DNA of 64,000 nt from Alphaproteobacteria bacterium HGW-Alphaproteobacteria-7. GTDB lineage: Bacteria; Pseudomonadota; Alphaproteobacteria; Sphingomonadales; Sphingomonadaceae. The stretch is from NCBI GenBank assembly GCA_002842735.1, contig PHEB01000007.1:1-64000 (forward strand), given 5' to 3'. This document shows, piece after piece, positions 39,461-60,995 of the stretch. The notes beneath the pieces are model-generated. The model was not told where the DNA came from. It was given only the letters and a program-made list of their open reading frames with translations, and did not search any database. Within the stretch, counting starts at the first letter, position 1, and each line of letters starts with the position of its first letter. Position numbers and translations under genes: made by a program.

Positions 39461-39486
39461 ATTCGATAAAAATGAAAATATCGAAT
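39461..39486. promoter_or_regulatory. ArsR operator
   Basis: ATTCGATA (39461-39468) and TATCGAAT (39479-39486) form an 8-bp palindrome with a 10-nt AT-rich spacer, 16-41 nt before the arsR start. The sequence resembles known ArsR sites with ATTCGA/TCGAAT half-sites and would block the promoter. Confidence 0.65.
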
Positions 39487-39924
39487 AATGGATCGGAGAT
39501 CAAGCGCCCGCAAATGCTGAGTGACGGGTTGGCGGGCTGTCCCACAGGACGTGAAGTGGCCATCTTGCCGAGGTGTTCCGCCTGACGCAGCACGCCCCGC
39601 TTTCCAACGAGCGCGGCACCCGCAAACAAAATTATGTTTTCGAGAGAGACTGTTTGGTGCGCGACGCAGTCCGTAGCGAACCTGCCTCTTGCGCAGATTC
39701 CTTGAAACGCAGGGAATCTACAGGGAAATTGAAAGTTTTCGGCTGAATTTCATGTACGGCAGCAACTGAGACCCGCAGAAATCTACGGCATTCAGGCTGA
39801 AATTCCTTGGTTCGTGAAACAGGGAATTTGCTCGCGCAAGCAATGAATAAATTTAACGGTAATGCTCGGTGCGCTGTCACAGACCCTCAAGTCCGCAGCC
39901 GCTTTCTTCTAGGCGATCAGACGG
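39487..39924. other. Gene-free stretch with repeated CAGGGAAT motif
   Basis: No convincing gene is seen. CAGGGAAT or CAGGGAAAT occurs at 39710, 39721 and 39820, with related GAAATCTACGG and GAATTTC words between, over 39700-39835. An 82-codon minus-strand frame (39632-39880) crosses it but has no coding character. From memory, intergenic stretches rich in this AGGGAATT word recur in many alphaproteobacteria near mobile or foreign DNA. This piece sits exactly at the left edge of the low-GC island. Confidence 0.45.
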
Positions 39925-41487: not shown

Positions 41488-42380
41488 TTGATTGCCATTC
41501 GATCTTCGGGCCTGATGCTGCTCGCCCGCGCCTCTTCCAACAATGCATGCACAAGCCGCAGCCGAATCGTTCCACGCGACCAAACCACGCCAATCCGGCG
41601 CCCAATTTCGTGTGTGGGCAAAGGCAGGCGCGCGACCGAGATACCCTCAGGCCAAGGTGGCGACCAGTCCGGTACGATGGATACGCCAAGTCCACGATCG
41701 ACCATAACGGCGATGGCGTTGAGAGCGTTCAGCTCAAACCTTTCTCGCGGAACGATGCCGTTTTGGCGCAGATACTCGTCGGCGTGCCGACCGCCCCATA
41801 GTTTGCGATCATACCGGATCAGCGGTTCGTTAGCGAGCAGGTGATGTGGGTTCAAGTGGGCCAAATGCGCGGGTGCAAGCACGATAAGCGGCTCCTCGTG
41901 CAATAAGGTCCAATCGCATGTTTTAGGCAATGGAAATGGCGCTTCAAGGACGAAGGCGGCGTCAAGGTTTCCAGCTTCAACTTCACCGTAGAGCTGAACC
42001 GAGGTTCCGGATTGGATATGAACATTGATATCTGGAAACCGCACACTGACGCGTGCAAGGATTTCTGGCAGCATGCCTGTCAGCGGCGTCGTGCAGGCAC
42101 CAAGCCGCAGTTCACCGCTGATCCCAGCGTCGTTGGCGATGCTTTTAAGATCGTTCGCATCACGCACGAGTTGCCGCGCGTGGCATAGGATCCGGCCACC
42201 CTGCTCGGTCATTCGCACGGTCCGCCCAACCCGGACTATCAGCGGCGCGCCAAGGTCCCTCTCCAGCGCCTGAAGCTGTTGGGCGATCGCAGAGGGGCTG
42301 ACATTGAGCAGGCGCGACGCCGCAGCCATCGATCCCTGATCCACGACCGCAACGAAGGTTCGGAGAAAATTGATGTCTAT
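41484..42380 (-). CDS. LysR-family regulator of the island, apparent ATA start
   Basis: This is a LysR-type regulator of 298 residues if read from the ATA at 42380. The winged helix reads DINFLRTFVAVVDQGSMAAASRLLNVSPSAIAQQLQALERDLG and is followed by a periplasmic-binding-protein-like effector domain. No ATG, GTG or TTG exists at the family's usual start. The codon in the Met position is ATA, overlapping the transporter's TAG, with GGAG 8 nt upstream. The first ordinary start codon (GTG at 42344) would remove most of helix 1. The effector may be a dicarboxylic acid, which is inference. Confidence 0.82.
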   Translation of the reverse strand: MDINFLRTFVAVVDQGSMAAASRLLNVSPSAIAQQLQALERDLGAPLIVRVGRTVRMTEQGGRILCHARQLVRDANDLKSIANDAGISGELRLGACTTPLTGMLPEILARVSVRFPDINVHIQSGTSVQLYGEVEAGNLDAAFVLEAPFPLPKTCDWTLLHEEPLIVLAPAHLAHLNPHHLLANEPLIRYDRKLWGGRHADEYLRQNGIVPRERFELNALNAIAVMVDRGLGVSIVPDWSPPWPEGISVARLPLPTHEIGRRIGVVWSRGTIRLRLVHALLEEARASSIRPEDRMAIK

Positions 42381-44773: not shown

Positions 44774-45594
44774 AAATCATGTTCCCCGGCTGCACTCAAA
44801 GTAGAACGAGCCTGTTCGATTTGAGGCCGGTCGACTATTTTGCCTTCAAAGGCGAAAGCTCCGTGCCCTCGTTTTGCGGCACTCTCGGCCGCTTCAAGCA
44901 GTCGCCGAGCGTCCTCGATAGCGCCGGTTCGGTCGAACACGTTGTTGATGATTGACACTTGCCGGGGGTGTATGCAGCTTTTGCCGAGAAAGCCCATGTC
45001 ACGAGCCAGGACAGCTTCGGCCCGGAAACCAACCTCGTCTGTGATATCAGGCCATGCCCCATCATATGCGAAGCAGCCCGCCTCCCCGGCGGCCAAACGT
45101 ATTTGCCAAAGCGCCTCGAAGACCGGGCGCTGATCACCACGCACGATGCCGAGCGGGGCGAATAGATCGTTAAGGCCAGCCTGAAGGCCTATAACCTTTG
45201 GATGGGCAGCGGCGATCTCTGCGGCGCGGCGCAGGCCTCGCGGCGTTTCGACATTCACCAAGAGCGAGGCTGACGTCAGGGCGGCGACCGCTCGCACATC
45301 ATCAGAGTTTTCCGCCTTTGGCACGTTGACAAGGATTTTTGTGCATTGGGGTAAGGCGGCAAGATCATCATGCCCGAATGGAGTGCCAAGTGCGTTGATG
45401 CGAACGATGAGAGTTTTATTGGTCGCTCGGACTGCATCGCTTTTGAGAAACGCCACCAACCGGCCACGCGCGTCTGCCTTACCATCCGGCGGTACCGAAT
45501 CTTCCAGATCAAAAGAGATCGCATCAGCTTCGCTGGCAACCGCCTTGGTGAAGAGATCAGGGCGCGCGCAGGGCACGAAAAGTTTACTACGCAT
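44770..45594 (-). CDS. CitE/HpcH-type acyl-CoA lyase
   Basis: This 274-residue protein is a TIM-barrel enzyme of the citrate-lyase-beta/malyl-CoA lyase family. It shows RSKLFVPCARPDLF, the metal/CoA site ISFDLEDSVPPDGKADAR, VRINALGTPFGHDDL, the Glu in LLVNVETPRGL and IGLQAGLNDLFAPLG, and the C-terminal GKSCIHPRQVSIIN. Such enzymes cleave malyl-, methylmalyl- or citramalyl-CoA to acetyl- or propionyl-CoA plus a 2-oxoacid. The ATG at 45594 has AAGGAGAGG upstream. With the CoA-transferase at 52944 it could activate and split a hydroxy-dicarboxylate. Confidence 0.88.
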   Translation of the reverse strand: MRSKLFVPCARPDLFTKAVASEADAISFDLEDSVPPDGKADARGRLVAFLKSDAVRATNKTLIVRINALGTPFGHDDLAALPQCTKILVNVPKAENSDDVRAVAALTSASLLVNVETPRGLRRAAEIAAAHPKVIGLQAGLNDLFAPLGIVRGDQRPVFEALWQIRLAAGEAGCFAYDGAWPDITDEVGFRAEAVLARDMGFLGKSCIHPRQVSIINNVFDRTGAIEDARRLLEAAESAAKRGHGAFAFEGKIVDRPQIEQARSTLSAAGEHDL

Positions 45595-45791
45595 CACCAC
45601 CTCTCCTTGAGATAAACGACTTTTTGCCGATCCTGATATCAGAAGAAAGCATTTCTCGCGTTTGCGCGCTAGAGGAGCCCCCCTAAAGCGCACTGAAAAC
45701 AGAAAAAGCGTGGTGTGAACGCAGGCCCGCCCTATTGGACCGTGAATGCGAGAACCGTATCACTTGGTTCATAACATGGGAGGGGATTACT
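45595..45791. promoter_or_regulatory. Divergent control region of the catabolic island
   Basis: This 197-nt space separates the leftward lyase operon from the rightward TonB-receptor operon. It is where the LysR regulator would bind. A small palindrome AGAAA-GCA-TTTCT lies at 45644-45656. AGGGGATT precedes the receptor ATG. No single promoter can be assigned with confidence. Confidence 0.4.
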
Positions 45792-48014
45792 ATGAGGAAT
45801 TTTGCTCACGTAAAGCTGTTCGCGTTACTGCTTGGTACGACTTCGACTGCTGCGCTGGCAGGACACGAATCCGACCTGCAGACAACGAAGCCGACCAATA
45901 CGCAGCAAGCATCAACGGTTACACAAGACAGTCCAGCGCCGTTGGCCACACCCGACGAGCAAGATGCGCAAAGTCGCTCCATTATCGTCACTGGTAGCCG
46001 CACCCCCCGGGCTGTAGACAAGATCGCAGGGGCGGTTACCGTCATCACTTCTGCCGACGTCCAGCGTTCGCTTGCGCTGACCGAAGACAGTACTGCAGTT
46101 TTGGCCAAGACGGTCCCAGGCTATTCAGAATCCAGTCAGACATTGAACACGCTGGGCGAGACAATGCGTGGCCGCGTCGCGCTCTATCTGTTTGACGGCA
46201 TTCCTCAGTCGACCCCACTGCGCAATGGGAGCCGAAACGCGGCCTTTACCGATATGTCCACCATCGAGCGGATTGAGGTTATTGGCGGAGCCTCTGCATC
46301 TGAAGGCATCGGCGCGGAGGGCGGTGTTATCAACTACATTTCCCGTCGGGCGACCCAACCCGGCCTACATGTCAACCTTGGAGGTCGGCTGGGCACACAG
46401 TTTCGGGACGACAGTGGAATATGGGGTATCAAGGGTGATGTCGCTTACAAAGGGAGCGGTGTCGACTTTTTTGCAGCCGGTGCTTACGTTGATCGCGGCA
46501 TAACCTACGATGCCAACGGGCGACGCATCGGCATGTCGGCTTCGAGTTCGCTGTCTGACTCTGTTCAGAAAAACTTGTTTGTCAAAGTTGGCACCGATTT
46601 TGGCGCGGGCGATACGCAGCGGCTTGAGTTGACCGCCAACTGGTTCAGACTCAAAGGCAAGGCCAACTATCACTGGGTTGCCGGCGATCGCGCTTTAGGC
46701 ATCCCGGATACCGCCGAACCTGGCCCTCAGTTGATCGACGGGGTCGATGTCCTTCGTCCAGACTTTAACGATTTTAAGCAGACGGCGCTCAAATATAGTA
46801 ATGAAGATGTCTTTGGTGGCACCCTGATTACCACTGTGTACGCAGCACGGCAGGCAATGCGCTTCCCGGGTGACAATGGCGCGAGTCGACAGGACCCGCA
46901 GATTGCTCCGCTGGGCACGCTGGTCGATCAGTCGGAGGTGCTGTCAAAGAAATACGGCCTGCTCACCTCGTTCTCGCGGCCAGATTTCCTGATCGATGAT
47001 CTCTTGCTGCGAATCGGTGTCGATGCAGTGCATGATCAGACTCAACAGCGCCTCGCGCTCACCGACCGTGTCTGGGTTCCGCCGATGAACTACGACAGCA
47101 TCGGCCCGTACATCCAAATGTCATGGGACATTGGGCCGGTTACGCTCTCGGGCGGAGCGCGGCATGAAAACGGGCAAGTTCAAGTTGACGATTATGTCAC
47201 CACATTTTTCCGGAACAGTGTAGCAGTTGAGGGTGGAAAGCTTAAATATTCGAATACATTGCCGAATGTTGGCCTTGTAACGCGTCTTGGTGCTGGTTTT
47301 TCAGTTTTTGGATCCTACTCAAAGGGCTTCACGCTGCCCAACCTCGGCATCCCTTTGCGGAATATAAACACGCCCGGGCAAAGTGTGGAAGGCATCGTCG
47401 ATCTTAAGGCGGTAATCTTCGACAACAAGGAGATTGGTGCGAACTGGCGTGGTCGCCGGGGTAGTGTGGGCGTTTCAGCCTATCGATCCTTCTCCAAGCT
47501 CGGTTCAAGCTTGGCTGTTGATCCTGTAACGCAGGACTTCGTTCTGAACCGGCGACCAGTTAGGATCACTGGCATTGACGCCACCGCCGAACTACGGGCG
47601 ACCGACTGGTTTCGGTTCAATGGGGTATACAGCCATGTCAAAGGTCGAACGACATCGGGGAACAATGTTCTGACGCCGGTTGAGACGCCCCTCGGGATCA
47701 CAAACATCCCACTGGACAAGTTGGTTGTGAGTGGAACGTTTACACCTACCGATGCGCTTTCATTTACAATCGGAATGGACACAACGTTTGATCGCGCACA
47801 GGCGGGATCCTCCCCGCCAGAAGACATTGAGGGCCGTACCCTGTTCGATCTTACCGCCAAATATCGGATCGAGAACGCTGGCACTGTTACACTTGGTGTC
47901 GAAAATCTGTTCAATGAATTTTACTTCCTAGCATTCTCCCAGATCGATTTTTTCCAGAACTACTTTGCCGGCCGCGGGCGAACCGTTTCGTTGCAGTTCC
48001 GAACCGATTTCTAA
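45792..48014 (+). CDS. TonB-dependent outer-membrane receptor
   Basis: This 740-residue protein has a signal peptide ending TAALA and a linker. The plug domain follows, with IIVTGSRTPRAVDKIAGAVTVIT (TonB box/plug start), LYLFDGIPQ and IERIEVIGGASASEGIGAEGGVINYISRRA. A ~550-residue beta-barrel ends VSLQFRTDF with the expected terminal Phe. It energises uptake of a large or scarce ligand. The ATG at 45792 is chosen over 45735 because AGGGGATT and the signal peptide start there. GC is clearly lower than in the core genes. Confidence 0.93.
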   Translation: MRNFAHVKLFALLLGTTSTAALAGHESDLQTTKPTNTQQASTVTQDSPAPLATPDEQDAQSRSIIVTGSRTPRAVDKIAGAVTVITSADVQRSLALTEDSTAVLAKTVPGYSESSQTLNTLGETMRGRVALYLFDGIPQSTPLRNGSRNAAFTDMSTIERIEVIGGASASEGIGAEGGVINYISRRATQPGLHVNLGGRLGTQFRDDSGIWGIKGDVAYKGSGVDFFAAGAYVDRGITYDANGRRIGMSASSSLSDSVQKNLFVKVGTDFGAGDTQRLELTANWFRLKGKANYHWVAGDRALGIPDTAEPGPQLIDGVDVLRPDFNDFKQTALKYSNEDVFGGTLITTVYAARQAMRFPGDNGASRQDPQIAPLGTLVDQSEVLSKKYGLLTSFSRPDFLIDDLLLRIGVDAVHDQTQQRLALTDRVWVPPMNYDSIGPYIQMSWDIGPVTLSGGARHENGQVQVDDYVTTFFRNSVAVEGGKLKYSNTLPNVGLVTRLGAGFSVFGSYSKGFTLPNLGIPLRNINTPGQSVEGIVDLKAVIFDNKEIGANWRGRRGSVGVSAYRSFSKLGSSLAVDPVTQDFVLNRRPVRITGIDATAELRATDWFRFNGVYSHVKGRTTSGNNVLTPVETPLGITNIPLDKLVVSGTFTPTDALSFTIGMDTTFDRAQAGSSPPEDIEGRTLFDLTAKYRIENAGTVTLGVENLFNEFYFLAFSQIDFFQNYFAGRGRTVSLQFRTDF

Positions 48015-48046
48015 GAACTGCGAGAATCTGATCAAGGGGAGCCGGG

Positions 48047-49003
48047 GTGACTGAAGGCAAAGCCAATAGCCAAATCATGATCGCCGGCTCCGCCAACGTT
48101 GATTTCGTCGTTCGCGCACCGAATATTCCCGCACCGGGTGAAACGGTGCTCGGCAGCGATCTAATGATTGTTCCGGGTGGCAAGGGCGCAAACCAAGCTG
48201 TCGCCTGCGCTCTTGCTGGTGGCGTTTTGACAAGCATGGTAGCGGCCATCGGGAACGATTCCCTCGCCGGGATTGTCGCGAACTCCCTGTCATCGGCAGG
48301 TGTGCATTTACACCGTGTGGAATCAGAACGTTCAACCGGCGTGGCTCTGATTACGGTGTCTGAACAAGCCGAGAATGCAATCACCGTAGCTCCCGGCGCT
48401 AATGCTGACCTATCGCCGACTGATCTGCCGGATCTTTCCGATATCGAATGGTTGGTCGTTCAACTCGAAACACCGATAGAAACCGTTACCGCGTTCGCCC
48501 GCGCAGCGAAGATTGCAGGCGTCAAAGTGTTGCTCAATGCTGCTCCAGCTAGAGAAATTCCTGCTGCTCTTTTACAGGCTGCCGATGTCGTTGTAGTCAA
48601 TGAGCCTGAGCTGTCTGTCGTCGCTGGGATCGACGGCTCGATTGCCGCTCAACTGCAACGGGTCGGCGTTTCATGCGCCGTGGTGACACTTGGGGGGCGA
48701 GGCTGTTGCGCGTTTGTAGACGGGCGCTGGGTTCTTCAACCCGCATTTACCGTTGAGCCAGTTGACACAACGGCGGCGGGCGATACTTTCGTCGGCGTTC
48801 TGGCTGCGGTATTGTCACAAAATCATTCTATAGAGGCGGCATTACGCCTAGCTGCGGCCGCCGCGGCCCTAACAACCACCCGCGCGGGTGCCCAATCAAG
48901 CATTCCCAAAGCTGCCGAGGTCATCGCTTTCGCTGCTGACGGCCCTTGCGGAGAGCGGCAGCCCCTGATGCAATATTGCGGTCTTTCTACTATAAATGCT
49001 TGA
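48047..49003 (+). CDS. rbsK: PfkB-family carbohydrate kinase (ribokinase-like)
   Basis: This 318-residue cytoplasmic sugar kinase shows the first PfkB signature GGKGANQAVACALAGG with its ribose-contacting residues and the PAPGETVLG start. It also has the VLNAAPAREIP and VNEPEL segments typical of ribokinases, and the second signature DTTAAGDTFVGVLAAVL with catalytic Asp. It should phosphorylate a furanose such as ribose or a similar pentose. GTG start with AAGGGGAGCC upstream. The C-terminus (LMQYCGLSTINA) overlaps the next frame. Confidence 0.86.
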   Translation: MTEGKANSQIMIAGSANVDFVVRAPNIPAPGETVLGSDLMIVPGGKGANQAVACALAGGVLTSMVAAIGNDSLAGIVANSLSSAGVHLHRVESERSTGVALITVSEQAENAITVAPGANADLSPTDLPDLSDIEWLVVQLETPIETVTAFARAAKIAGVKVLLNAAPAREIPAALLQAADVVVVNEPELSVVAGIDGSIAAQLQRVGVSCAVVTLGGRGCCAFVDGRWVLQPAFTVEPVDTTAAGDTFVGVLAAVLSQNHSIEAALRLAAAAAALTTTRAGAQSSIPKAAEVIAFAADGPCGERQPLMQYCGLSTINA

Positions 49004-51152
49004 GATCTTCGTTCCTATGACCTCACCCCATCGAACCACCAGTGACATCAAGTTTAGCCATGCGCTGACTGGGCCTTACTTGCCAACGCCAGGCAAGGCT
49101 CCAGGATGGCCTTTCACCGCGATGGCACCGTGGAAGATCGATGTCGACGCAGCCGTTGATGAATGGGTTAGGGGTCTTGTCGAGTGGCGTCATGAGCATC
49201 TGATTCGTATAGGCTTTGACGACGCACTCTACCGTGAACCCGCGCTCCAATGGGCGCAATCGAATTTCGTCCATGCGTTAGCGATGGTCGAAGACCGTTA
49301 CTTTTTCGATGTTGATGCCGGGGAATATACGGTCAATCGCTATCTCGACGATCTCGAAGCCCGTTACGGTGGGATCGACAGTGTGCTCATTTGGTATATC
49401 TATCCCAATATCGGGATAGATGACCGCAACCAATTTGATTTGGCTAAGGCGTTACCTGGTGGTATTCTGGCACTAAAGCGGGTGGTCGCAGATTTTCACG
49501 CTCGCGGGGTTAAGGTGTTTCTTCCGACAATGCCGTGGGATAACGGCACGCGCGAAGACACGGCTTCCGATTGGGATCGAATGGCCGATCTTGTCGCCGA
49601 AACTGGTGCTGATGGAATAAACGGTGACACCTATTCCGGCGTGCCGCGCGCATTTCATACCGCCTGTGAAGCGCGGGGAACAAAGGTCATTCTTCAGCCA
49701 GAATCGACCGCGCAGGCAGGGGACCATCACCTGTCGTGGAACTTGCAGAGTTGGAGCAAGCGCATACCTGATGAGACAATTCCAACAGTTGTTAAGCTTA
49801 AGTGGCTAGAGCCGCGTCATATCATTAACATCGAAAATCGCTGGAGCCGAAACCGTACCAACGATCTGCAGCACGCATTCTTCAATGGTATCGGCTACGT
49901 TGCGTGGGAAAACGTGTTCGGATTTGTCAATCTCTTCACTGAGCGCGATGCCGAAACCCTGCGCCGCGTGGCGACGGTGCAGCGCCAGTTTTGCGTTGAA
50001 CTTACGGGGGCGGATTGGCACCCCTATGAGCGGACGTTGCAGAACGGTGTTTTTGCAAGCCGTTGGCCAGGCGCTGGCCGCACGCTGTGGACACTGATTA
50101 ACCGGCAAGAGTACACGATTGGTGGCGAGCAATTAGCCGTGCCACACACAGGTGGCACAGTGTACTACGATGTCTGGGGCGGAATGCGTATCGAACCGCG
50201 AATCGAAGATGGTCGCGCAATTCTTGGCACTGAATTGGACGGCAACGGTTTCGGAGCCTTTCTGGCCGACACGACGGGCGGAGATCTCAGCAATTTTCTA
50301 GCGCAGATGCGCGATTTTTCAAAACAGCCCTTGTCCGCATACTCGAACGAATGGACGGCTGCCCGCCAAGAGCTCGTCCCAGTCAAACCGACACCCAAGT
50401 ATGAGAATGCACCTGAGGGGATGGTTGCCATTCCCGCCGCATTGTTTGATTTTAAGGTTCGCGGCTTGGTGATCGAAGGCTACGCCCAAGCTGGTGTTGA
50501 TGTTCAATACCCGTGGGAGACCGAGCCCCGGCGCGACCATCGCCATCGTATCGATATTCCTGCCTTCGCTATTGATCGCCACCCGGTTACAAACGCGCAA
50601 TTCAAAGAATTTATCGAAGCAAGTGGTTACGCACCGCACGACCAACAAAGCTTTCTGTCGCACTGGATCGATGGCGCACCTCCCTCGGGTTGGGATGATT
50701 GTCCCGTAACATGGGTCGCGATGGATGACGCGCAGGCTTATGCAAGCTGGGCTGGTAAAAGGCTCCCGCGCGAGTGGGAATGGCAATATGCGGCGCAGGG
50801 CTCCGATGGACGGCGCTATCCGTGGGGCAATCATTGGCGTGATGACAATGCGCCCAATGCCAGCATGAAGCGCCGAATGGCTCGCCCACCCGTAATTGGC
50901 CGCCACCCTAGCGGTGCAAGCCCATTCGGAGTCGAAGATCTCGTCGGCACCATATGGCAATGGACCGACGAATACCGGGATGAACATGTGCGTGCCGCCG
51001 TGTTACGCGGTGGCAATGCCTATCAGCCGCAAACATCTCATTGGTATTTCCCCCAAGCCTACGCGCTCGACGAGCACGGCAAGTACTTATTAATGGCGCC
51101 GGCAAAGGACCGCTCGGCAGGAATCGGGTTTCGCTGTGTCGTTGATCTGTGA
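48996..51152 (+). CDS. TIM-barrel glycosidase-like protein fused to a SUMF1/FGE-like domain
   Basis: This is a protein of up to 718 residues (ATG at 48996; an ATG at 49017 is the alternative). Residues ~40-450 look like a (beta/alpha)8 glycoside-hydrolase-type domain with strand-end acids in LIWYIYPNIGIDDRNQ, FLPTMPWDNGTREDT, ADGINGDTYSGVP and ILQPESTAQ, followed by a beta-domain. Residues ~470-718 match the SUMF1 fold: IDRHPVTNAQFKEFI, WAGKRLPREWEWQYAA, YPWGN, GTIWQWTDEYRDE and GIGFRC. The copper-binding Cys pair of true formylglycine-generating enzymes is missing, so that activity is unlikely. No signal peptide. I do not recognise the family of the N-terminal part. Confidence 0.7.
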   Translation: MLEIFVPMTSPHRTTSDIKFSHALTGPYLPTPGKAPGWPFTAMAPWKIDVDAAVDEWVRGLVEWRHEHLIRIGFDDALYREPALQWAQSNFVHALAMVEDRYFFDVDAGEYTVNRYLDDLEARYGGIDSVLIWYIYPNIGIDDRNQFDLAKALPGGILALKRVVADFHARGVKVFLPTMPWDNGTREDTASDWDRMADLVAETGADGINGDTYSGVPRAFHTACEARGTKVILQPESTAQAGDHHLSWNLQSWSKRIPDETIPTVVKLKWLEPRHIINIENRWSRNRTNDLQHAFFNGIGYVAWENVFGFVNLFTERDAETLRRVATVQRQFCVELTGADWHPYERTLQNGVFASRWPGAGRTLWTLINRQEYTIGGEQLAVPHTGGTVYYDVWGGMRIEPRIEDGRAILGTELDGNGFGAFLADTTGGDLSNFLAQMRDFSKQPLSAYSNEWTAARQELVPVKPTPKYENAPEGMVAIPAALFDFKVRGLVIEGYAQAGVDVQYPWETEPRRDHRHRIDIPAFAIDRHPVTNAQFKEFIEASGYAPHDQQSFLSHWIDGAPPSGWDDCPVTWVAMDDAQAYASWAGKRLPREWEWQYAAQGSDGRRYPWGNHWRDDNAPNASMKRRMARPPVIGRHPSGASPFGVEDLVGTIWQWTDEYRDEHVRAAVLRGGNAYQPQTSHWYFPQAYALDEHGKYLLMAPAKDRSAGIGFRCVVDL

Positions 51153-51156
51153 CGCC

Positions 51157-52947
51157 ATGCGCTTCGCGCCGCTTGGATCGGTAGCTCTTGGGGGCCTATT
51201 GGGTGAGGCCGTCGAGGCCAACCGGACTGGTCGGTTGCGCACATTTATCGTCAATGAAACGAGCGAGGCAATTGCAATCTTCGCCCGTGATCGCGCCCAA
51301 GCGAACGTGCAGGGCGATTGGTATGGCGAACATGCTGGGAAATGGCTTCTTGCCGCCGTCAAAGCCGCCAAACGTATCGATGACGCGGAGCTTTTGGGAC
51401 GGGCAAGGCGGGTCGCCGACTGGTTGATCGATCAGCAAGAAGCAGATGGGTATTTGGGTACCTATGCGCCTTCCCGCCGTTTCATGCGCCGTCAGCCGCC
51501 CAAACCGCCGAGCTGGGATGGGGCGCCGGCGGAACGGACGTGGGATATCTGGAACCACAGCTACCTCGTCCTTGGCTTCCTTGAACTGCACACTGCAACG
51601 ACTGATGCGCGGTATCTTCAGGCAGCGCGCGCGATCGGCGATCTATGTCTTAACACGCTTACAAAGGGACAGATTGCGATTACCGAACTTGGCAACCACT
51701 TTGGCTTGTCTGCATCGGTTTTGCTCGATCCTGCCGTGGAATTGCATCTCGCTACTGGCGAACAGGATTATCTCGATCTTGCGTTGTTGATAGTGGATCA
51801 AATCGAGCGAGAACCGGGCAACCGTATGTTCAGTCAGGCACTCGATGGGGTGGATCCGTCGGCAATTGCCACCGGGAAAGCCTATCAGTTGCTGTGGAAC
51901 ATGGTTGGTGTGGCCAAGCTTTATCGTGTAACTGGCGATGGGCGGTTTCTTACGGCTACGCTAAACATCTGGCAGGCAGTGCGCGATCACCACCTGACCC
52001 TTGGCGGGGGGCCATGGGGGGGCGTGGCACATCGGTCACGCGAGGTATTCAACCCGGTGGGCACCTTCGACCCACAAGCTTATGTCGAAACCTGTTCGAC
52101 GATGGCATGGATCCAACTCAATCGCGAATTGCTTCGCATCCTTGGCGAGGCACGCTTCGCGGAAGAAATTGAGCGCAGTGCGTATAATGACCTCCTCGGG
52201 GCGCAGGCTCCGAACGGCGAGGACTGGTGTTATTACAGCTTTCCCAACGGGAAGCGGGTGCACACGACCTACTGGCGCTGCTGCAAGTCGAGCGGTGCGG
52301 TCGCTTTGGAAGAGCTGTCATCGTTGGCATATGCCGTGACCAAAGGCGGTGAGATCGCAATAAACCTGCTTGGGCCATCAACAGCACATATCGATGTGCC
52401 GGGAGTGGGCCAAGTTTGCATCGTCCAAACCACCGCTTACCCGTTTGATGGCGAAATCAAGATCGCAATGCAGCAGTCGGGTGTATCCGTGCCTCTCCTC
52501 ATTCGTGTGCCCGAATGGGCAGAGGGAGCCGTCATAAAGCAGACGGGCACCGCACTCATTCCCGGCACATATGCCCGGATCGAAACTGCGGGTGATATCA
52601 CCATCACCCTACCCATGGTGCCAAGACATCATCGGCGGGAAGCCCATAATGTGCAGCAGTCGTTGGCACCCGATGGCTCGCCGGTCGAGCAGGAGGTCAT
52701 GCGCCACGCCTATGCTGCGATCACCCGAGGCCCGCTGGTCTATGCGACCCGCCTGGTTGATGGGTATAAACCAGTCGAGACCATCAGGCCCGCTGCCTCC
52801 GCGCTGTCAATGGCCGATGACGATGTTGTGCTCTCGCTCCAGGACCGATCGCCGATCATCTTTGAACCATATTTCCGAGCCGGCGGCCGACACCACGGAA
52901 GCTGGCGTTTGACGTGGCTGCGTCTGCCGCCCGAGGAAGTCGCATGA
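51157..52947 (+). CDS. GH127-type beta-L-arabinofuranosidase family protein
   Basis: This 596-residue protein has an (alpha/alpha)6 barrel followed by beta-sandwich domains. The zinc-thiolate site of GH127 is visible: Glu311 and Cys313 in VETCST, and the CC pair Cys375-Cys376 in YWRCCKSSG, the first of which is the nucleophile in the characterised HypBA1. Glu296 (REVF) is placed like the acid/base Glu. It has no signal peptide, so it acts in the cytoplasm. It should release a terminal furanosyl sugar, probably arabinose-like. The ATG at 51157 follows the previous stop by 4 nt. An in-frame GTG at 51136 would overlap it. Confidence 0.87.
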   Translation: MRFAPLGSVALGGLLGEAVEANRTGRLRTFIVNETSEAIAIFARDRAQANVQGDWYGEHAGKWLLAAVKAAKRIDDAELLGRARRVADWLIDQQEADGYLGTYAPSRRFMRRQPPKPPSWDGAPAERTWDIWNHSYLVLGFLELHTATTDARYLQAARAIGDLCLNTLTKGQIAITELGNHFGLSASVLLDPAVELHLATGEQDYLDLALLIVDQIEREPGNRMFSQALDGVDPSAIATGKAYQLLWNMVGVAKLYRVTGDGRFLTATLNIWQAVRDHHLTLGGGPWGGVAHRSREVFNPVGTFDPQAYVETCSTMAWIQLNRELLRILGEARFAEEIERSAYNDLLGAQAPNGEDWCYYSFPNGKRVHTTYWRCCKSSGAVALEELSSLAYAVTKGGEIAINLLGPSTAHIDVPGVGQVCIVQTTAYPFDGEIKIAMQQSGVSVPLLIRVPEWAEGAVIKQTGTALIPGTYARIETAGDITITLPMVPRHHRREAHNVQQSLAPDGSPVEQEVMRHAYAAITRGPLVYATRLVDGYKPVETIRPAASALSMADDDVVLSLQDRSPIIFEPYFRAGGRHHGSWRLTWLRLPPEEVA

Positions 52948-54107
52948 GCGCATTCCGCAACCCGAAGCGAGAGGGCCCCTCGGGGCCGCTCAGCGGCATT
53001 AAAGTGCTCGACCTCAGCGCTTATATTGCCGGTCCTTATGGTTGCACACTGCTGGCCGACCAGGGAGCCGATGTCATCAAGGTCGAGCCCCCATCGGGCG
53101 ATAACTTGCGCCTATACCCCTCGACGCTCAATGGAGAGAACCGTGCCTTCCTTGGCGTCAACCGGTCTAAAAAGGGCGTAGTGCTAGATCTTAAGGCAAC
53201 CGACGACCGACAAATCCTTCTGGGGCTAGTGGAGGAAGCCGATGTTCTGGTGCATAATTTCCGACCGGGTGTGCCGGGGCGGCTGGGGATCGATTATGCC
53301 TCGCTGGCTGAGCTTAACCCCCGCCTGATCTACTGTGCGGTTACGGGCTATGGTGAAGATGGCCCCTTAGCCGGGCGCGCTGGTTATGACCAAGTTCTTC
53401 AGGCGATGACCGGAATGTGCGTGTTGCAAGGCAGGTCCGACGGACCTCCAGAGCTGACTTACGGTTCGCCAGTAGACTACTATGCCGCCTCATTGGTCGC
53501 GGCCGGAGTCGCATCGGCGCTATATGAGCGGGAGCGCAGCAACAGGGGTCAATACGTCGGAGTGTCGTTGCTTCGCAGCGCGCTGGCGATGCAGTCTGCT
53601 CGCATGGTGAAGGGGCCGGGTGAGCGTCATGATATCTCACGCGATATGCGATCTGGCGGCATCACTGGCCTGCACCCGACCGCCGACGGTTGGCTATACC
53701 TGTCAGCAAATACCCCGCACTTTTGGAGCGCCTTGTGCGAACGCACGGACCTTCCCGAACTCGCGGACGACCCCAGCTATGACAGCGTAAAGAAGCGAGC
53801 GGAGCGGGCTGAAGAGCTTGTCGCACGTTTGCGCGCTAAACTACTTCTCCGATCAGCTGAGGAGTGGGAGACTCTGCTGGCCGATGCAGTACCTTGTTCG
53901 GTCGTGCGCAGGGTCGAGGATATGTTTAACCACCCTCAGGTTGTCGCTGAAGGCCTGATGGCTGAAATTTCCCACCCGATACTTGGCAGCTACAAGGGAG
54001 TGGCACACCCGATCAAATATTCGCGAACGCCTGGGCCATTGCCGTTCGCCGCACCTCTCCTTGATGAGGATCGTTCGGAAATCAAGGGTCGCGATATGAG
54101 CAACTGA
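52944..54107 (+). CDS. CaiB/BaiF-family CoA-transferase
   Basis: This 387-residue family III CoA-transferase shows GIKVLDLSAYIAGPYGCTLLADQGADVIKVEPPSGD, FLGVNRSKKGVVLDLK and NPRLIYCAVTGYGEDGPLAGRAGYD. The catalytic Asp lies in GSPVDYYAASLVAAGVASALYERE, and the C-terminal SHPILGSYKGVAHPIKYSRTPG is typical. It swaps CoA between a donor such as succinyl-CoA and a carboxylic acid. The ATG overlaps the GH127 stop by 4 nt. In itaconate, citramalate and malate pathways such a transferase works with a CitE lyase, here encoded at 44770. Confidence 0.9.
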   Translation: MSAFRNPKREGPSGPLSGIKVLDLSAYIAGPYGCTLLADQGADVIKVEPPSGDNLRLYPSTLNGENRAFLGVNRSKKGVVLDLKATDDRQILLGLVEEADVLVHNFRPGVPGRLGIDYASLAELNPRLIYCAVTGYGEDGPLAGRAGYDQVLQAMTGMCVLQGRSDGPPELTYGSPVDYYAASLVAAGVASALYERERSNRGQYVGVSLLRSALAMQSARMVKGPGERHDISRDMRSGGITGLHPTADGWLYLSANTPHFWSALCERTDLPELADDPSYDSVKKRAERAEELVARLRAKLLLRSAEEWETLLADAVPCSVVRRVEDMFNHPQVVAEGLMAEISHPILGSYKGVAHPIKYSRTPGPLPFAAPLLDEDRSEIKGRDMSN

Positions 54108-54133
54108 TCGCCTGCACGGCCACCTGAACAACT

Positions 54134-54151
54134 GACCGGCTGAAGCCGGTC
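54134..54151. terminator. Hairpin after the CoA-transferase gene
   Basis: GACCGGCT-GA-AGCCGGTC is a perfect palindrome, in practice a 7-bp stem with a TGAA tetraloop, 27 nt after the stop of the last island gene. No T-run follows, so it may stabilise the mRNA end or mark Rho-dependent termination. The rest up to 54344 has no gene I can support. Confidence 0.45.
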
Positions 54152-54344
54152 GTCTAATAGCGGGGCGGATCGCGCATGTTTTTTGTTGGCGGCGGCCATC
54201 GCGCGATGGATCAAGGATGCCAGTGTTGGGAGCATGGACGTCTTCGCAGTCAACATGTGCCGCTGCATTGTCCGTCGTCAGAACATTTGGCGCGGCGGTG
54301 GTTTTCGATGTATTGATAGGGAAGGGAAAAACGGGGGCGGCGCA

Positions 54345-56321
54345 ATGGTGGGCAGGATTGACGCTGACGAGACGCGGAGCGGGCAACGCCCGTCGGTTTT
54401 CGTCAGCTATTCGCGCGTCGATCTCGACCGCTCGCGTCCGGTCATCACGCTGCTTGAGGCTGCGGGTTTCGACGTGTGGTGGGATGGCAGGCTCGAAGGC
54501 GGTGAAAACTACCTTGTCACCACCGAAACGGCACTTGAGTCCGCTGATTGCGTGGTGGTGCTGTGGTCGCAACAGTCAGTCGTCTCGCACTGGGTCCGCG
54601 ACGAGGCCCAGCGCGGACGCGAGCGCGGATGCCTCGTGCCGCTATCGCTCGATGGCACCATGGCCCCGCTGGGTTTTCGCCAGTTCCAGTTGCTCGACAT
54701 CGCGGGTTGGTCGGGTGATCCGGCGGCGCAAGACGCGCAGCGCATCCTTGTGGCGGTGCGTTCCAAGTCAGGCCAATCCACACCCGGCCCTGCGCCCGTA
54801 TCCCCGCTGGCGGTTGCGGCCATTCCCGCCAGCGGCCCTGTGCTGTCGCGGCGGGCCGCGCTGATTGGCGGAACGGGACTTGCCGGAGCGGCGGCGATCA
54901 CTGCGGGCTGGGCCATCGGCCTGTTCACCCCGGCTGCGGCTGGCGCGGTGTCGATGGTGGTTCTGCCCTTTTCCAATCTGACCGGAGACAAGAGCAAGGC
55001 GTGGTTTTCCGACGGCCTATCGAATGAACTGCGCGCGGTGCTGGTGCGCAACCCGCGGCTCAAGGTCGCTGCGCCAACGTCTTCCAGCGCGATCGCGGGC
55101 GAGGACGAATTCGCCATTGGCCGTAAACTTGGTGTCGATCATATCCTGCGCGGCAGCGTGCAGCGCGATTCGGAACAGATGCGCGTTTCGGCCGAGCTGG
55201 TCGAGATCAATGGCGGGCTGGTGCGCTGGGCCGAAAGCTATGACCGCGCGGTAGAGGACGTGTTCGCGCTCCAGTCGGAAATCGCCGAAACCGTGGCCAC
55301 GTCGCTGGTGGCCACCGTGGCTTCGGACGATGAACTGAAGACCAGTATCGCGGCCCAGCGCGATGTCGGCGGAACCGAGAATATCGCCGCGTTCGAAGCT
55401 TTCCTGCGGGGTCATGCGCTTTATGATCTGTCTGCCGGGGCAGCGACAGACCGGGCGGCGCTGATCCAGTTCGAAGCCGCGATCGCCGAAGATCCAAACT
55501 TTGCCGCAGCCCACGCCATGCGATCGACGATGCTTGCAGCGATCGCCAATAATGCCGCCAGCGATGGCGAGGAATCGCGCAAGCTGTTTTCTGATGCCAT
55601 TGCCGCAGCCGAACAATCGCTTGCGCTCGAACAGCGCCTCGCGCGGGGACATCTCGCGCTTGGCTTTGCGCTCGCCAATGGCCAGCTCAAACCGGGAGCG
55701 GCATTGCCGCACTATCAGGCCGCCGAGCGCCTTGCCCCCGGCGATGCCGATGTGCTGCGCGCAGCGGCGAGTTTTCATGCCTATGGCACCGACCGCGCGC
55801 TTGCCGTGCGGATGATCGCGCAGGTGCTCGAACTCGATCCCCTCAATGCGCGGGCGTTCCGCACGGCCGGGTATATTACCCTGTTTGCACGCGATTATGC
55901 CAGCGTGATCAAGCATATGCAGGGCGCGCTCGAACTCAATCCCAGCATTGCAAGCGCGCAGTTCGCCATGGCCATCGCGCGCCTGTTGCAGGGCGATGCA
56001 GCGGGCGCGCTGGTCGCTGCGAAGGCGGAGCAGGGGAAGGCCTATGCCCTCACCGCTATCGCGATTGCCTCGCACCGGCTTGGCGATGCGGCAGGATCGG
56101 ACGCGGCGCTTGCATCGCTGGTGGCCGAATACGCGGACAGCCGATACCAGCGGGCGCAGGTGCATGCGCAGCGCGGTGAGGCGGATAAGGCGCTGGCGCT
56201 TCTGGAAAAAGCCTTGAGTGCGACCGATCCGGGTCTGTTGTGGGCACCGAACGACCCGTTGCTCGATCCGCTGAGGGGAGAGCGGCGGTTTGATGAATTG
56301 CTTTTGCAGCTAACCTCGTGA
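54345..56321 (+). CDS. TIR-domain membrane protein with TolB-like and TPR regions
   Basis: This is a 658-residue protein. Residues ~15-125 form a TIR domain (PSVFVSYSRVDLDRS, AAGFDVWWDGRLEGGENY, ADCVVVLWSQQSVVSHWVRDEA), with Glu87 in the position of the NADase catalytic Glu. One membrane helix follows at ~171-195. Then comes a TolB/FlgO-like domain (VVLPFSNLTGDKSKAWFSDGLSNEL...LRGSVQRDSEQMRVSAELVE), as in CadC- and cyclase-linked proteins, and TPR repeats to the end. The topology puts TIR inside and TPR outside. The ATG at 54345 is chosen because the TIR domain begins there. It could be a signalling enzyme or a scaffold. Confidence 0.82.
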   Translation: MVGRIDADETRSGQRPSVFVSYSRVDLDRSRPVITLLEAAGFDVWWDGRLEGGENYLVTTETALESADCVVVLWSQQSVVSHWVRDEAQRGRERGCLVPLSLDGTMAPLGFRQFQLLDIAGWSGDPAAQDAQRILVAVRSKSGQSTPGPAPVSPLAVAAIPASGPVLSRRAALIGGTGLAGAAAITAGWAIGLFTPAAAGAVSMVVLPFSNLTGDKSKAWFSDGLSNELRAVLVRNPRLKVAAPTSSSAIAGEDEFAIGRKLGVDHILRGSVQRDSEQMRVSAELVEINGGLVRWAESYDRAVEDVFALQSEIAETVATSLVATVASDDELKTSIAAQRDVGGTENIAAFEAFLRGHALYDLSAGAATDRAALIQFEAAIAEDPNFAAAHAMRSTMLAAIANNAASDGEESRKLFSDAIAAAEQSLALEQRLARGHLALGFALANGQLKPGAALPHYQAAERLAPGDADVLRAAASFHAYGTDRALAVRMIAQVLELDPLNARAFRTAGYITLFARDYASVIKHMQGALELNPSIASAQFAMAIARLLQGDAAGALVAAKAEQGKAYALTAIAIASHRLGDAAGSDAALASLVAEYADSRYQRAQVHAQRGEADKALALLEKALSATDPGLLWAPNDPLLDPLRGERRFDELLLQLTS

Positions 56322-56364: not shown

Positions 56365-56625
56365 ATGAAGAAGATCATGACTGCCGCCGTCCTGGCCGGC
56401 GCCGCGTTGGGGCTGGCTGCATGCAACGGCGAAACGACCGAGCCCGCGGCCGAAGATGTGGCCGAAGAAACCGGCACGGCAGAAGGTGACGTCGTGACTG
56501 ACGAAACCATGACAGACGAAGACGCTGCGGCGCTTGAGGCGGCGGCCGCTGCTGCCGAAGGAACCGAAACCAACAGCAATCCGATCGGCCCAGCCGCGTC
56601 ATCGGCGGACGGCGCCGCTGAGTAA
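56365..56625 (+). CDS. Small acidic lipoprotein
   Basis: This 86-residue protein has a lipoprotein signal (MKKIMTAAVLAGAALGLAAC, lipobox LAAC with Cys20). The mature part is almost only Glu, Asp, Ala and Thr, so it is disordered and strongly acidic. No domain is recognisable. GAGGGGGAA lies before the ATG. It follows the TIR gene by 43 nt on the same strand and may be co-transcribed. Confidence 0.75.
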   Translation: MKKIMTAAVLAGAALGLAACNGETTEPAAEDVAEETGTAEGDVVTDETMTDEDAAALEAAAAAAEGTETNSNPIGPAASSADGAAE

Positions 56626-56669: not shown

Positions 56670-58837
56670 CTACCGTCGCCGCGCGGGCGTGCGGCCGGCC
56701 ATGACGTCAGCGATCCATTCGCTTACCTTTGCCACGCGCGTGTAACGGCTGGGAACCCCGGTCGATCCGCATTTCTCACCGGCGCTGACCACCCCGATCA
56801 CCGTGGGAATGCGGCGCTCGTCGTCATAGGAGATGAGCGGGCCGCCGCTGTCCCCATCGCAGGCCTGCGAGCGGTCGGGCGCTGCCGCGCACAGCACGGC
56901 ATTGAGCAGTGATCCGCGGAACTCGGTGCGCTGCGTGCAGGCCTCGGGATCTTCCAGGTGCATCCTTGCGCCGCGCAGATGATCGCTCGATTGGCCCCTG
57001 AACTCGGTCAGCCCCCAGCCATAGGTATAGACCGGCATCCCGGCATTGATCTCGCGTTCTTCAAGCGGCAGCGGATCGATCCGGATGCGGGCGATGGCAT
57101 TGGTTTCCGCGCCTTTCTCTCCCGCGCGCGGGTCGAACCGGATCAGCGCAATATCAAAGGCGCGGCTCGGCTGGTGGTAGCGGGGATGCGCCACGGCGCG
57201 CAGGATCGGGTAGCTGACCCCCTCGTCGGCCTGCGGGTTATAGACCCCCAGCCGGATGCGGTGCCCTGATCCGATCAAGGACTTGCCGTCCTTGTCCGTG
57301 ATGCAATGGGCTGCGGTGAGGACCCAGCCCTCAGCGATCAGCGACCCGCCGCACGCCACCCGCTGTCCGGGTGCGAGGTTTTGCCCACCCATCTGGGCCG
57401 GTCGCCACAGCAACGCCTGCCACGGTGCCTGCCCCGGACGGAGCTGATAACCTCTGCTGATCCGGCGCACTGGATCGCAGAGGGTATCGAGATAGACCGC
57501 GCCGCGGAAATTCACCGACGAATATCGGCAAGGATCGAAGCGAGCATTCTCCGCCTCGATTGCCAGCGATTCCGCCACCCGGCGGGCCTCTTCGGCCGGG
57601 TCGGTCGGCTCGGTCGGCGGGCCAAAGCGGTCGTCCGCTGCCAGCAGCGGCGCTTCCGGATCGGACCCGGCGCGCTTGTACAATTCGTCGCAGAGCCTGG
57701 GCAGGCCGCGTTCGCACGCGTCAACAAGCAAGGCGTAGCCGCGCGCGCGATCTTCCGACAGACGGTTTTCGTCTGTCAGGCGCAGGCCGAGAGTCACGCA
57801 ATCGCCTTCGATGCCGCTATTACAGCCGATGGCATACCACTGTTCCGCCCGGGCCGCAGCTTCGGGTGAGGGGTCGATGAGCGCCATGAGCGCCGCATCG
57901 CGGCAAACCTCGCTCTCGCCCCCCTCGCACGCTATCCCGAGAAGCCTCAATCCTTCGGCTGGGGAATGCAGCGGTGACCATTCCGCAGTGTAAATCCGCC
58001 CGAGTGCGGCGCAATCGGCCATGCCCCCGTTTGCACAACTGGCGGATAAGGCGGGCCGGTCGCGGATCTGCTGCGCTATGGTGCAAAAATCGGGATCGCG
58101 CGCGCAGGCCCGGTCGAACAGGGCTTGCGCCTCGCCCCGGTGTTCTGGCGGCCCGCGACCCTCGGCGAATACCGCCCTGCCGAGCGTCTGGCAGGCAAAG
58201 GCCGCCCCTGCAGTGCAGCCGTGATTGAACGCGTTGCGCAGTTCAGGCGTCAAATCCTCTGTCTTGTTAGCGTAGCGCCCGCCCAACAGGTCGCAGGACT
58301 GGAGGTCCCCTGCGCGGCAATCGTTTATGCGCGATTGCAGTTCTTCGGCGTGTTCGTTCTTGGCGGCGATAATGTCTGCCAGCGCGTCACAGGCCTCAGA
58401 CGCGCCGAGCGTGCAGCCGCGCCGCAGCGCGATCATGCCTTCGTCCTGCGCGCCGGTATTGTCGACCATTCGCAGTTGCGCGCCCAGTGCAAAGCAGCCC
58501 TCCGCCTGGCCGCCGTTGCAGGCCTGACGGAACAGCAATTCGGCCACCGGGCGATTCTGCGGCCTGCCCGCACCATCCCGGTATGCCCGGCCCAACGCGG
58601 CGCATCTGGTGAGGTCGCCCGCATCGCAGGCGGCTTCGGCCCGCGCGGCTTCGGCCTCATCGCGTGCGCGCTCCGCCTCCGGTCGGTCCGGATCAGCACG
58701 GTACCAACCTTCGCTGCTTGAGGGATATACCAACCTTCGCTGCTTGAGGGATAATCGTGCGCCACCTGCGTCTGCGCCGCTGCGGGAACCGCCAGCGCCA
58801 GCAACGCGCCCATCACTATCGCAATCCGTCCGATCAC
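56670..58837 (-). pseudogene. Sel1-repeat/trypsin-like serine protease, frameshifted by a 26-bp tandem duplication
   Basis: Removing one duplicate copy gives a 713-residue exported protein. It would have a signal peptide from the ATG at 58837 (IAIVMGALLALAVPAAAQ), then Cys-rich Sel1-like repeats (~residues 50-400, repeated C-x-x-G-x-x-x-x-C), then a trypsin-fold domain. That domain has the triad His in LTAAHC, Asp in DIALIRF and Ser in GDSGGP intact. As assembled, the signal peptide frame runs into an unrelated frame just after SSSEGWY and stops at 58433. The protease frame is open upstream only through non-homologous sequence (to 58931) without a signal peptide. Confidence 0.85.
58702..58753. 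repeat. Exact 26-bp tandem duplication
   Basis: Positions 58702-58727 and 58728-58753 are identical over 26 bp with no spacer. The unit begins TACCAACCTTCGCTGC and ends GAGGGATA. Because 26 is not divisible by three, the second copy shifts the frame of the protease gene just downstream of its signal peptide. One copy restores it exactly (the join reads SSSEGWY-RADPDRPEAER). Confidence 0.97.
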
Positions 58838-58988
58838 CGCACGCCCCCCACTTCCCCGACGGAATAATGCGCCTTCCTGCGCGTCCCGTCAAACCGGGGG
58901 CAGGCGCGCATCGCCCCTTGTAAGCGTGCAAAACTACACGTTAAGGTTGCCCCATCCGGCCTGTCCGGCAAAGAAGGACAGACCGCCT

Positions 58989-60968
58989 ATGCCCTCCTCG
59001 CCATTTGCAGATCCCGACGCCGAATGGCAGCCGCGTCTTGCGCTGGGGGTCACCGGCCACCGCGCCACCAATCCTGCATTTTCCGCGAATAGCGCAGCGA
59101 TCACGGATGCGCTGGCCGGTCTGTTCGCACGGATCGAGGGGATCGCGGCAGGCCTTCGCGGCAATCAGGGCGCGGTGCGACTGCACAGCCTGCTGGTTGA
59201 CGGCACCGATCAGGTGGCTGGCGAACTGGCGCTGGCGCGCGGGTGGGAACTGGTGGTGCCGATGCCGTTCGGGGCCGATCTCAACCTTGCGATCAACGCC
59301 CATCCGACGACCCCGGCCGATGCCGCCGCGCTATGCCGTGGGCAGCCGGCCGCCGATCCGCAGGTGGAGGCGCATGCCGCTGCAATCCGGTCGATCACGG
59401 CGCGCGCGCATCTGTTCGAACTGGCCGATCGCGATGCGCAGATTGAAACGCTGTTGCTGGCGACCCTCACCAACCCGCAAGACCGCGACGCGGCCCGCTC
59501 CTATGAGGCGCTTGTTTCGGGCAATGTCGCGCTCGCCGGGCGGGTGATGATCGAACGCACCGATCTTGTGGTCGCGGTGTGGGATGGCAAGATCGCCAAT
59601 CTGCCGGGCGGCACCGGCCACACGATCATCAGCGCGCTGGAAATGGGCACCCCGGTGTTGCTGATCGATCCGACCGCGCCGCAAGAATGGTCGATCCTGA
59701 CCCGGCCAGAGGAGCTTGGGCATCCCGAACGCAACAACGCCCCCGATGCGGTGCGACAGGCGCGGCTTGAGGCGACCATTCGCGCCGCGATGGTGGCGCA
59801 AGGTTGGCACCCGCAGGGGCCAAGGCGCGAACACTGGCGCGCCCGCTCCAGCTTCGCCTTCAGTCTCTATCGCCTGATCGAGCGGGTGTTTGGCGAAGGC
59901 ACCCTGATCCCCGGCCGGATGCGGATCGAATACGAGGCACCCGATGCCATCAGCACCGGCAGTGCAGCCGGTTTGCTGGCGGCGGCTGAGGCGGCACCGG
60001 GCGCAGACCCTCTGCTCGTAGCGCGGCTGCGCGGAGTGTTGCTGCCCATGTTCGCCCGGGCTGATGGCATCGCCAGCCGTCTTTCCGATGCCTATCGCAG
60101 CGGCATGTGCGTCAACTTCGTGCTCGCCGCGTTGGCTGTGATCATCGGCCTTGCCTTCTACCCGTTCGGCCTCGCGGAGGTGAAATGGGTGTTTGCTTCG
60201 GCCGAACTGCTGCTGCTGGCGGGGATTCTGGTCATCACGCTTGCCGGATCGCGCCTTGGCTGGCACCGGCGCTGGTTCGAAATGCGGCGGGTTGCCGAAT
60301 ATCTGCGTCATGCGCCCGGCCTGCTGCTGCTCGGCGTGTCACGCCCGACGGGGCGCTGGCCACGAAAAGGCGGGCGTGGGCACGAAGCCGAATGGCCCGA
60401 ACATTTCGCTCGCCACGCGCTGCGTGAAGCCGGTCTGCCCCGCATACGTCTGACCCGCGCCTATCTGCGCGCCTGCCTTGAAGGAGTAGTGCTTCCCCAT
60501 GTCGCGGCCCAGCGCGCCTATCATGAGGTCAAGGCCGCGCGGCTGGAGCGCGTTCACCACCGGCTTGACCGGTTGGCGGGGGCCAGCTTTCTGCTCGCGG
60601 TAATTTCGGTTCTGGCCTATCTGCTGCTCAAATCCGCGGGACTCGCGGGCGCGGCACCCACAGCCTGGGCGAGCGACCTTTCGCCGCTCTTCACCTTCTT
60701 TGGCGTCGCTTTGCCGACCCTCGGCGCGAATATCGCCGGGGTGCGCTATTTCGGCGATTTCGAGCGGTTCGGGGCGATTTCGCGCGCGGCGGCGGAACGG
60801 TTGGGTGAGGTCGAAACGCGCATCGGGTTGCTGTTGTCGGGCACCGACACGGCGCTCAGCTATGAAGCCGCCGCCGAACTCCTGCACGCGGTGGATGATG
60901 CGGTGGTGGGTGAAATCGAAAGCTGGCAGGCCGTTTTCGGCGCGAAGCACCTTGCGCTTCCGGCCTGA
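58989..60968 (+). CDS. SLOG-domain protein with four membrane helices
   Basis: This is a 659-residue protein. The N-terminal ~275 residues form a Rossmann-like SLOG domain: LGVTGHR at residues 19-25, LVDGTDQVAGELALARG, RTDLVVAVWDGK at 190-201 and GGTGHTIISALEMGTPVLLID at 207-227. The C-terminal half has two pairs of helices (~374-392 and 401-419; ~530-548 and 565-585) flanked by basic helical stretches, resembling the SLOG-associated two-helix membrane effectors (SLATT type). Such proteins are predicted to sense a nucleotide and disturb the membrane. The ATG at 58989 has AAGGAC upstream. It is divergent from the protease gene. Confidence 0.75.
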   Translation: MPSSPFADPDAEWQPRLALGVTGHRATNPAFSANSAAITDALAGLFARIEGIAAGLRGNQGAVRLHSLLVDGTDQVAGELALARGWELVVPMPFGADLNLAINAHPTTPADAAALCRGQPAADPQVEAHAAAIRSITARAHLFELADRDAQIETLLLATLTNPQDRDAARSYEALVSGNVALAGRVMIERTDLVVAVWDGKIANLPGGTGHTIISALEMGTPVLLIDPTAPQEWSILTRPEELGHPERNNAPDAVRQARLEATIRAAMVAQGWHPQGPRREHWRARSSFAFSLYRLIERVFGEGTLIPGRMRIEYEAPDAISTGSAAGLLAAAEAAPGADPLLVARLRGVLLPMFARADGIASRLSDAYRSGMCVNFVLAALAVIIGLAFYPFGLAEVKWVFASAELLLLAGILVITLAGSRLGWHRRWFEMRRVAEYLRHAPGLLLLGVSRPTGRWPRKGGRGHEAEWPEHFARHALREAGLPRIRLTRAYLRACLEGVVLPHVAAQRAYHEVKAARLERVHHRLDRLAGASFLLAVISVLAYLLLKSAGLAGAAPTAWASDLSPLFTFFGVALPTLGANIAGVRYFGDFERFGAISRAAAERLGEVETRIGLLLSGTDTALSYEAAAELLHAVDDAVVGEIESWQAVFGAKHLALPA

Positions 60969-60995
60969 TCCCGGCGGCTCGCACCCGAAGCGCAA

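Follow-up and report, generated by a model that had tools for sequence, protein, structure and literature searches.

The window considered here, a 64,000 nt stretch of DNA lying on contig 15 of an Erythrobacter-like draft genome (2.66 Mb, 39 contigs), harbours a cluster of three genes between positions 54345 and 60968, in which a protease gene sits between a TIR–TPR gene and a divergent SLATT-like gene. The TIR–TPR gene, at 54345–56321 on the plus strand (the start being approximate), is an open frame for which Pfam and profile searches return a TIR_2 domain together with TPRs. The SLATT-like gene, at 58926–60968 on the plus strand, is also an open frame and encodes a protein similar to the SLATT/DUF4231 families (SLATT_1, E 4.3e-6), with scores below the curated cut-offs for both (SLATT_1, 26.7 bits versus 41 in NCBIfam; DUF4231, 19 versus 24.7 in Pfam); judging by motif, its N-terminus is presumably SLOG-like. 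An 86 aa lipoprotein-like frame (56365–56625) lies between the TIR–TPR and protease genes, and has matches in the loci of five relatives. We know of no function for the three-gene cluster.

The protease gene is read from the minus strand and comprises, in order, a promoter-like site, a GTG start at 58837, a 28-codon signal-peptide segment, two copies of a 26 bp unit and a further 676 codons. The promoter-like site (TTGACG-17-CATTAT, 58864–58892) was located by a motif scan, with one such site found against 0.1 expected in shuffled sequences, and a resembling sequence is present at the same place in three aligned relatives. The GTG and signal-peptide segment occupy 58754–58837, ahead of the duplication, and a closely similar signal peptide is found in G007, the nearest relative and a metagenome bin, where it is in frame with the part that follows. 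Copy 1 of the repeated unit, in reading order, spans 58728–58753, and copy 2 spans 58702–58727. The remainder of the gene (56670–58701, 676 codons and a stop) appears to encode Cys-rich, Sel1-like helical repeats followed by an S1 protease domain, and is open in a frame other than that of the signal peptide.

Reading of the frames bears out the original prediction that the gene is frameshifted after its signal peptide. The frame opened by the GTG in this two-copy allele closes at 58433, giving a product of 134 aa (58433–58837, minus strand) with no Pfam match at E 0.01, and the repeat/protease frame, in which a hydrophobicity-plus-cleavage rule picks out no signal peptide, stays open down to 56670. 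The TTG at 58931, from which a 753 aa frame can be read, lies upstream of the promoter-like site and is unlikely to mark the start of the gene. The TGA of the 134 aa frame overlaps an ATG (58434–58436) that is in frame with the protease, forming an ATGA at 58436–58433, which is possibly a weak re-initiation site whose product would lack the signal peptide.

An exact tandem duplication

The two 26 bp units (58702–58727 and 58728–58753) are adjacent and identical, and so form the exact tandem repeat that had been claimed. Identity between the copies ends at the unit edges, with 0 extra bases on either side, and so, by this criterion, the event was not guided by a short repeat already in place. 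Within the window, 58702–58753 is the top tandem repeat according to TRF, with a score of 104 compared to 53 for the runner-up, and ten simulated 64 kb first-order Markov sequences contained no exact tandem repeats with a unit of at least 12 bp. A scan of the window and 20 further stretches of the same genome (450,887 of 2,659,576 bases, or 17 %) revealed just two other exact tandems with units of at least 20 bp, one of 22 bp and one of 24 bp, the latter being a multiple of a 12 bp unit. A genome-wide expansion of repeats was thus not seen in the scanned 17 %, and is rejected. The 22 bp tandem (L057:102–146) is situated near a contig end, before a 362 aa minus-strand frame, and falls outside the nearest long frames. 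As RNA, a single 26 bp copy folds weakly (−3.9 kcal/mol, with no shuffled comparison), which is uninformative.

Among the relatives aligned, the additional copy is confined to the window. An alignment of the 5′ region places the 26 bp insertion in the window alone, with G007, Erythrobacter sanguineus and Erythrobacter fulvus, the three nearest relatives aligned, each carrying one copy. One match to the protease protein was found within the window's own genome. Beyond it, the protein is 88 % identical over 473 residues to that of a metagenome bin, HGW-Alphaproteobacteria-14, and amongst named relatives displays 69 % identity in E. sanguineus, 68 % in E. fulvus and 41 % in Erythrobacter ramosus. 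Using 56673–58670, corresponding to a 666 aa piece of the gene remainder, 48 matching places were identified in 40 of 114 genus genomes (E ≤1e-60), three of which have one stop within the match. Of these places, 37 were read as DNA for the presence of a signal peptide, using the hydrophobicity-plus-cleavage rule, and 36 have one in frame with the protease; the sole exception is the window. A motif check of the same 37 loci found no Asp motif in L002 or L007, and no Ser motif in L002, L009 or L073.

The encoded protease

The C-terminal domain is readily assigned. Pfam returns a Trypsin match at E 3.9e-40, and a Foldseek search with a structure model of the protein has a best E of 1.0e-14, with the 50 matches listed being, by title, S1 proteases or complexes containing them. 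Across 27 aligned sequences, among them that of the window, His455 shows no variation and Asp506 and Ser608 hardly any, hence both the fold and the His-Asp-Ser triad of an S1 (chymotrypsin-fold) serine protease are present. Six residues before the catalytic Ser, at what we take to be position 189 of the S1 pocket (an Asp in trypsin specificity), there is a nearly invariant Gln602, and this Asp is absent; as such, 'trypsin' names the fold of this protein rather than its cleavage specificity.

The N-terminal region is less sharply defined. The structure model, built with the same number of sequences (27; mean pLDDT 79.6, pTM 0.55), shows helical residues from 1 to 336, followed by the protease, with block pLDDT values of 79–97 for residues 1–300. 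As the listed Foldseek matches are all of S1 type, the helical region is not identified by that listing. With Pfam Sel1 at E 0.01, the window protein is unmatched, and 11 of the 27 aligned sequences are matched; the alignment also contains invariant Cys pairs spaced by 7–8 residues. From these two features, we infer that the helical region is probably Sel1-like. Accordingly, of the earlier description of a Sel1–trypsin protein with an intact catalytic triad, the triad stands, being conserved throughout most of the alignment, and the Sel1 assignment holds in part.

Variation of the protease gene is also seen elsewhere. In G007, which has one copy of the unit, the DNA diverges from that of the window at L033:6419, after the region of the catalytic His, and continues into new sequence that may be the tail of an HNH-type gene. 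This bin has no TIR–TPR match at E 1e-60; what remains is a match of 54 bases to sequence directly upstream of where TIR–TPR is assumed to start. The breakpoint may be a true truncation or a chimeric join of the bin. In E. fulvus, two adjacent Sel1-protease genes lie within the cluster (L031:2389–6965), indicating that gain of a second protease gene occurs alongside loss.

Selective constraint and age

The frame downstream of the duplication still looks constrained. Nei–Gojobori dN/dS for the protease is 0.27 between the window and G007 (473 codons), similar to the 0.26–0.36 of the other five pairs, including 0.31 for the intact pair of E. fulvus and E. sanguineus. For the SLATT-like gene, the corresponding value between the window and G007 is 0.16. 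On the window branch, parsimony assigns 28 synonymous and 18 non-synonymous changes to the protease, versus 25 and 12 to the SLATT-like gene (p = 0.65), and two such comparisons of counts reveal no difference between the genes (p = 1.0 and 0.65). This lack of relaxed selection fits a recent event, and means that the notion of the protease being perhaps less needed in the small clade of the window and G007 draws solely on G007. On the branch of G007, there is a tendency for the protease to have a greater share of non-synonymous changes (p = 0.055 and 0.17).

Under neutrality, the entire window branch would be expected to accumulate approximately 6.4 nonsense changes, and the two copies to differ at about 5.6 positions; none of either is observed. 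This places the loss, as a crude 95 % bound that assumes a clock and takes half of the pairwise dS as branch length, within the last quarter of the branch. That the duplication is recent, one of the two options originally drawn from the identity of the copies, is well supported.

Origin of the duplication and alternative readings

We consider it quite probable that a one-off 26 bp tandem duplication recently inactivated a secreted Sel1-like/S1 protease belonging to a conserved three-gene cluster. By default, the duplication would have arisen through an error of replication or repair, and, by placing the signal peptide out of frame, would have left an allele that is effectively null with respect to secretion. 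Collapse to a single copy should be possible in principle, at low frequency, as in any tandem duplication. With regard to more specific origins, Ku-type end joining is unlikely, as no match to a Ku gene was found in the window's genome by a search that matched 1 of 14 control genomes (Bacillus subtilis). A transposon footprint is rejected, because the 21-base core of the unit is unique in the genome and Pfam searches of nearby genes found no transposase; a target-site duplication of 26 bp would, in addition, be unusual. As to a plasmid origin, 56670–58950 is unmatched in a plasmid collection, one which may omit the window's own record.

The original prediction went further, proposing that RecA-independent slippage between the repeats could act as an on/off switch. 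On such a reading, one-copy (on) and two-copy (off) alleles would interconvert often enough for both to persist in the population, under selection. This proposal was not supported, and we judge it improbable. Identical adjacent copies are prone to slippage deletion and thus provide a substrate for it, the frame downstream of the duplication is open, and copy number does alter the frame, as in phase-variable loci, given that 26 is not a multiple of 3. Comparable duplications in pneumococcal capsule genes are, moreover, reported as reversible phase variation in the excerpts considered of PMC4022640 and PMC4243769. However, the site has exactly 2.0 copies rather than a many-copy hypermutable tract, there is no repeat tract in any of the three aligned relatives, and the zero flanking microhomology makes the forward step look like an ordinary rare mutation. 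Frame is also not regained by a third copy, with neither 26 nor 52 added bp being a multiple of 3; expansion would need to reach four copies (78 bp) for this, and hence a balanced switch is not what the site provides. Lastly, the assembly holds a single allele, with no one-copy version of the unit core found elsewhere and no second site for the 21-base core when up to 2 mismatches are allowed.

That the second copy is an artefact of assembly or sequencing, with the living strain having one copy, seems quite improbable. The genome is a draft in 39 contigs, which lends the idea some credence, but short-read assemblers tend to collapse short tandem copies more often than they create them, and few exact duplications of this kind occur in the scanned 17 % of the assembly. 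It is possible that a culture artefact, or a mixed population with one and two copies, lies behind the two-copy allele. Production of a shorter, non-secreted protein with a cytoplasmic role, via re-initiation at 58436–58433 or another internal start, is very unlikely, for whilst the stop of the 134 aa frame overlaps an in-frame ATG whose Met is kept in G007, both E. fulvus and E. sanguineus have Leu in its place, and the many invariant cysteines, alongside a signal peptide in 36 other loci, suggest that the protein would probably not fold correctly in the cytoplasm. The finding is most likely a null allele of recent origin, ordinary and of a known sort.

Conservation and genomic context of the cluster

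Searches of the 114 genus genomes find the SLATT-like gene in 57 (E 1e-40), the TIR–TPR gene in 58 (E 1e-60) and the protease domain in 56 (E 1e-8). Presence is close to all-or-none, with 53 genomes possessing all three genes, 53 possessing none and 8 having one or two. Fisher tests for each pair of genes return p < 1e-22, values that are not true probabilities as the species are related, and some of the genomes are incomplete. In the 53 genomes with a complete set, the three genes are on one contig, within ~9 kb, and 39 of these 53 share the order and orientation of the window. The full 666 aa piece is matched at E 1e-60 in 39 of the 53; the remaining 14 match by the protease domain alone, at 30–38 % identity.

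With regard to the surroundings of the cluster, the neighbouring gene in the window is of nrdA type, as we name it from its sequence, and is present in 109 of the 114 genomes. The SLATT-like and nrdA genes are found together on one contig in 24 of the 57 SLATT-bearing genomes, the other 33 not being judgeable. The distance between them is less than 10 kb in three (the window, G007 and G088), 120–210 kb in eight and greater in 13; the placement in the eight could be one old site held in several species. On the TIR side, the neighbours differ, being a CoA-transferase III gene in the window, an AMP-binding enzyme in E. fulvus and an M24 peptidase in E. sanguineus. In the latter species, a gene for a phage-type integrase (L032:996–2225) additionally flanks the cluster at its SLATT end.

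Three nrdA regions without the cluster were compared to the window, from G117, which has no cluster match, and from G011 and G084, which have the cluster elsewhere. At the right edge, similarity to these regions begins at 60984–60991, past the stop of the SLATT-like gene at 60968, and a sharp edge of similarity is thus apparent at 60969–60991. On the left, window positions 38001–54400 have no counterpart in the three nrdA stretches, and no full empty site was found among them. The differing neighbours and the nrdA edge together indicate that the cluster sits in several contexts.

Outside of the genus, 298 genomes from other genera of the family yielded 41 SLATT-like matches. For 16 of these loci, mostly the strongest, the surroundings contain both TIR–TPR and protease matches in 10, TIR–TPR alone in one and neither in five, the out-of-genus protease matches being weak (27–31 % identity).

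A search of PADLOC-DB returned no strong, full-length defence model for the cluster proteins, with matches that are weak and partial: LmuA for the protease (E 0.0017), SAVED_TIR for the TIR part of the TIR protein (E 1.3e-6) and DrmC for the SLATT-like protein (E 0.016). Assignment to a known anti-phage defence system is rejected on this basis. Among the matches listed by a literature search, in which coverage of subscription papers is low, no paper on the cluster or the gene was evident from a title or the start of an abstract.

Comparison with described systems and significance

The best precedent for the mutation is provided by pneumococcal capsule genes, with duplications in the type 3 locus (Waite et al. 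2001) and in cap8E and tts (Waite et al. 2003), as cited in PMC4022640 and PMC4243769. As those excerpts describe them, the likeness lies in a gene being switched off by a tandem duplication within its coding region, and one of the two citing papers contrasts capsule duplication with irreversible loss, implying reversion. Whilst phase variation and more than one duplication are described there, the present case is one allele. Tandem repeats also act as copy-number switches in the small repeats of Salmonella mutL (PMC2955026) and in promoters of Mycobacterium tuberculosis (PMC12817950), where, as here, a change in the number of adjacent repeats alters gene function. In the parts of those papers drawn upon, however, variation is found within populations or among isolates, as opposed to one genome with two copies and three relatives with one.

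With respect to the protein, an S1 protease with Sel1 repeats is known from Pelodictyon luteolum (YP_374752.1), the one protein listed for the order Tryp-(Sel1)6 in the section consulted of PMC2605481. It shares with the present protein the joining of a trypsin-family domain to Sel1 repeats, but in the present protein the protease comes after the repeats, and 40 of the 114 genus genomes contain full-length relatives. For the cluster as a whole, the closest parallel is with predicted NTP-dependent conflict systems that have TIR, SLATT and trypsin-like components, and in which SLATT is predicted to be a nucleotide-responsive, pore-forming effector (PMC7159879, in extract). The same kinds of domain occur together in both cases, although those systems, as outlined there, have NTPase cores, and none was recognized in the present cluster, whose protease has a signal peptide.

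On these grounds, we infer that the cluster may act in conflict. A broader and more tentative proposal, which we regard as possible but rather doubtful, is that a TIR–TPR protein, a SLATT-like membrane protein and an exported Cys-rich repeat protease constitute an undescribed three-gene system, inherited nearly all-or-none in different chromosomal contexts, and directed against phages or neighbouring cells in conflicts. The protease would then be costly or dispensable enough to be lost, through the duplication in the window and through truncation in its sister lineage, with the duplication leaving a route back.

The duplication itself carries a caution, in that a perfect tandem copy is a sign of recency and not of a switch. 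The cluster matters more than the mutation, as domains linked to nucleotide signalling and immunity occur together across the genus, and in part beyond it, with one of the proteins being exported. In this context, the broken protease of the window is a natural variant with which to ask whether the remaining cluster works without it.
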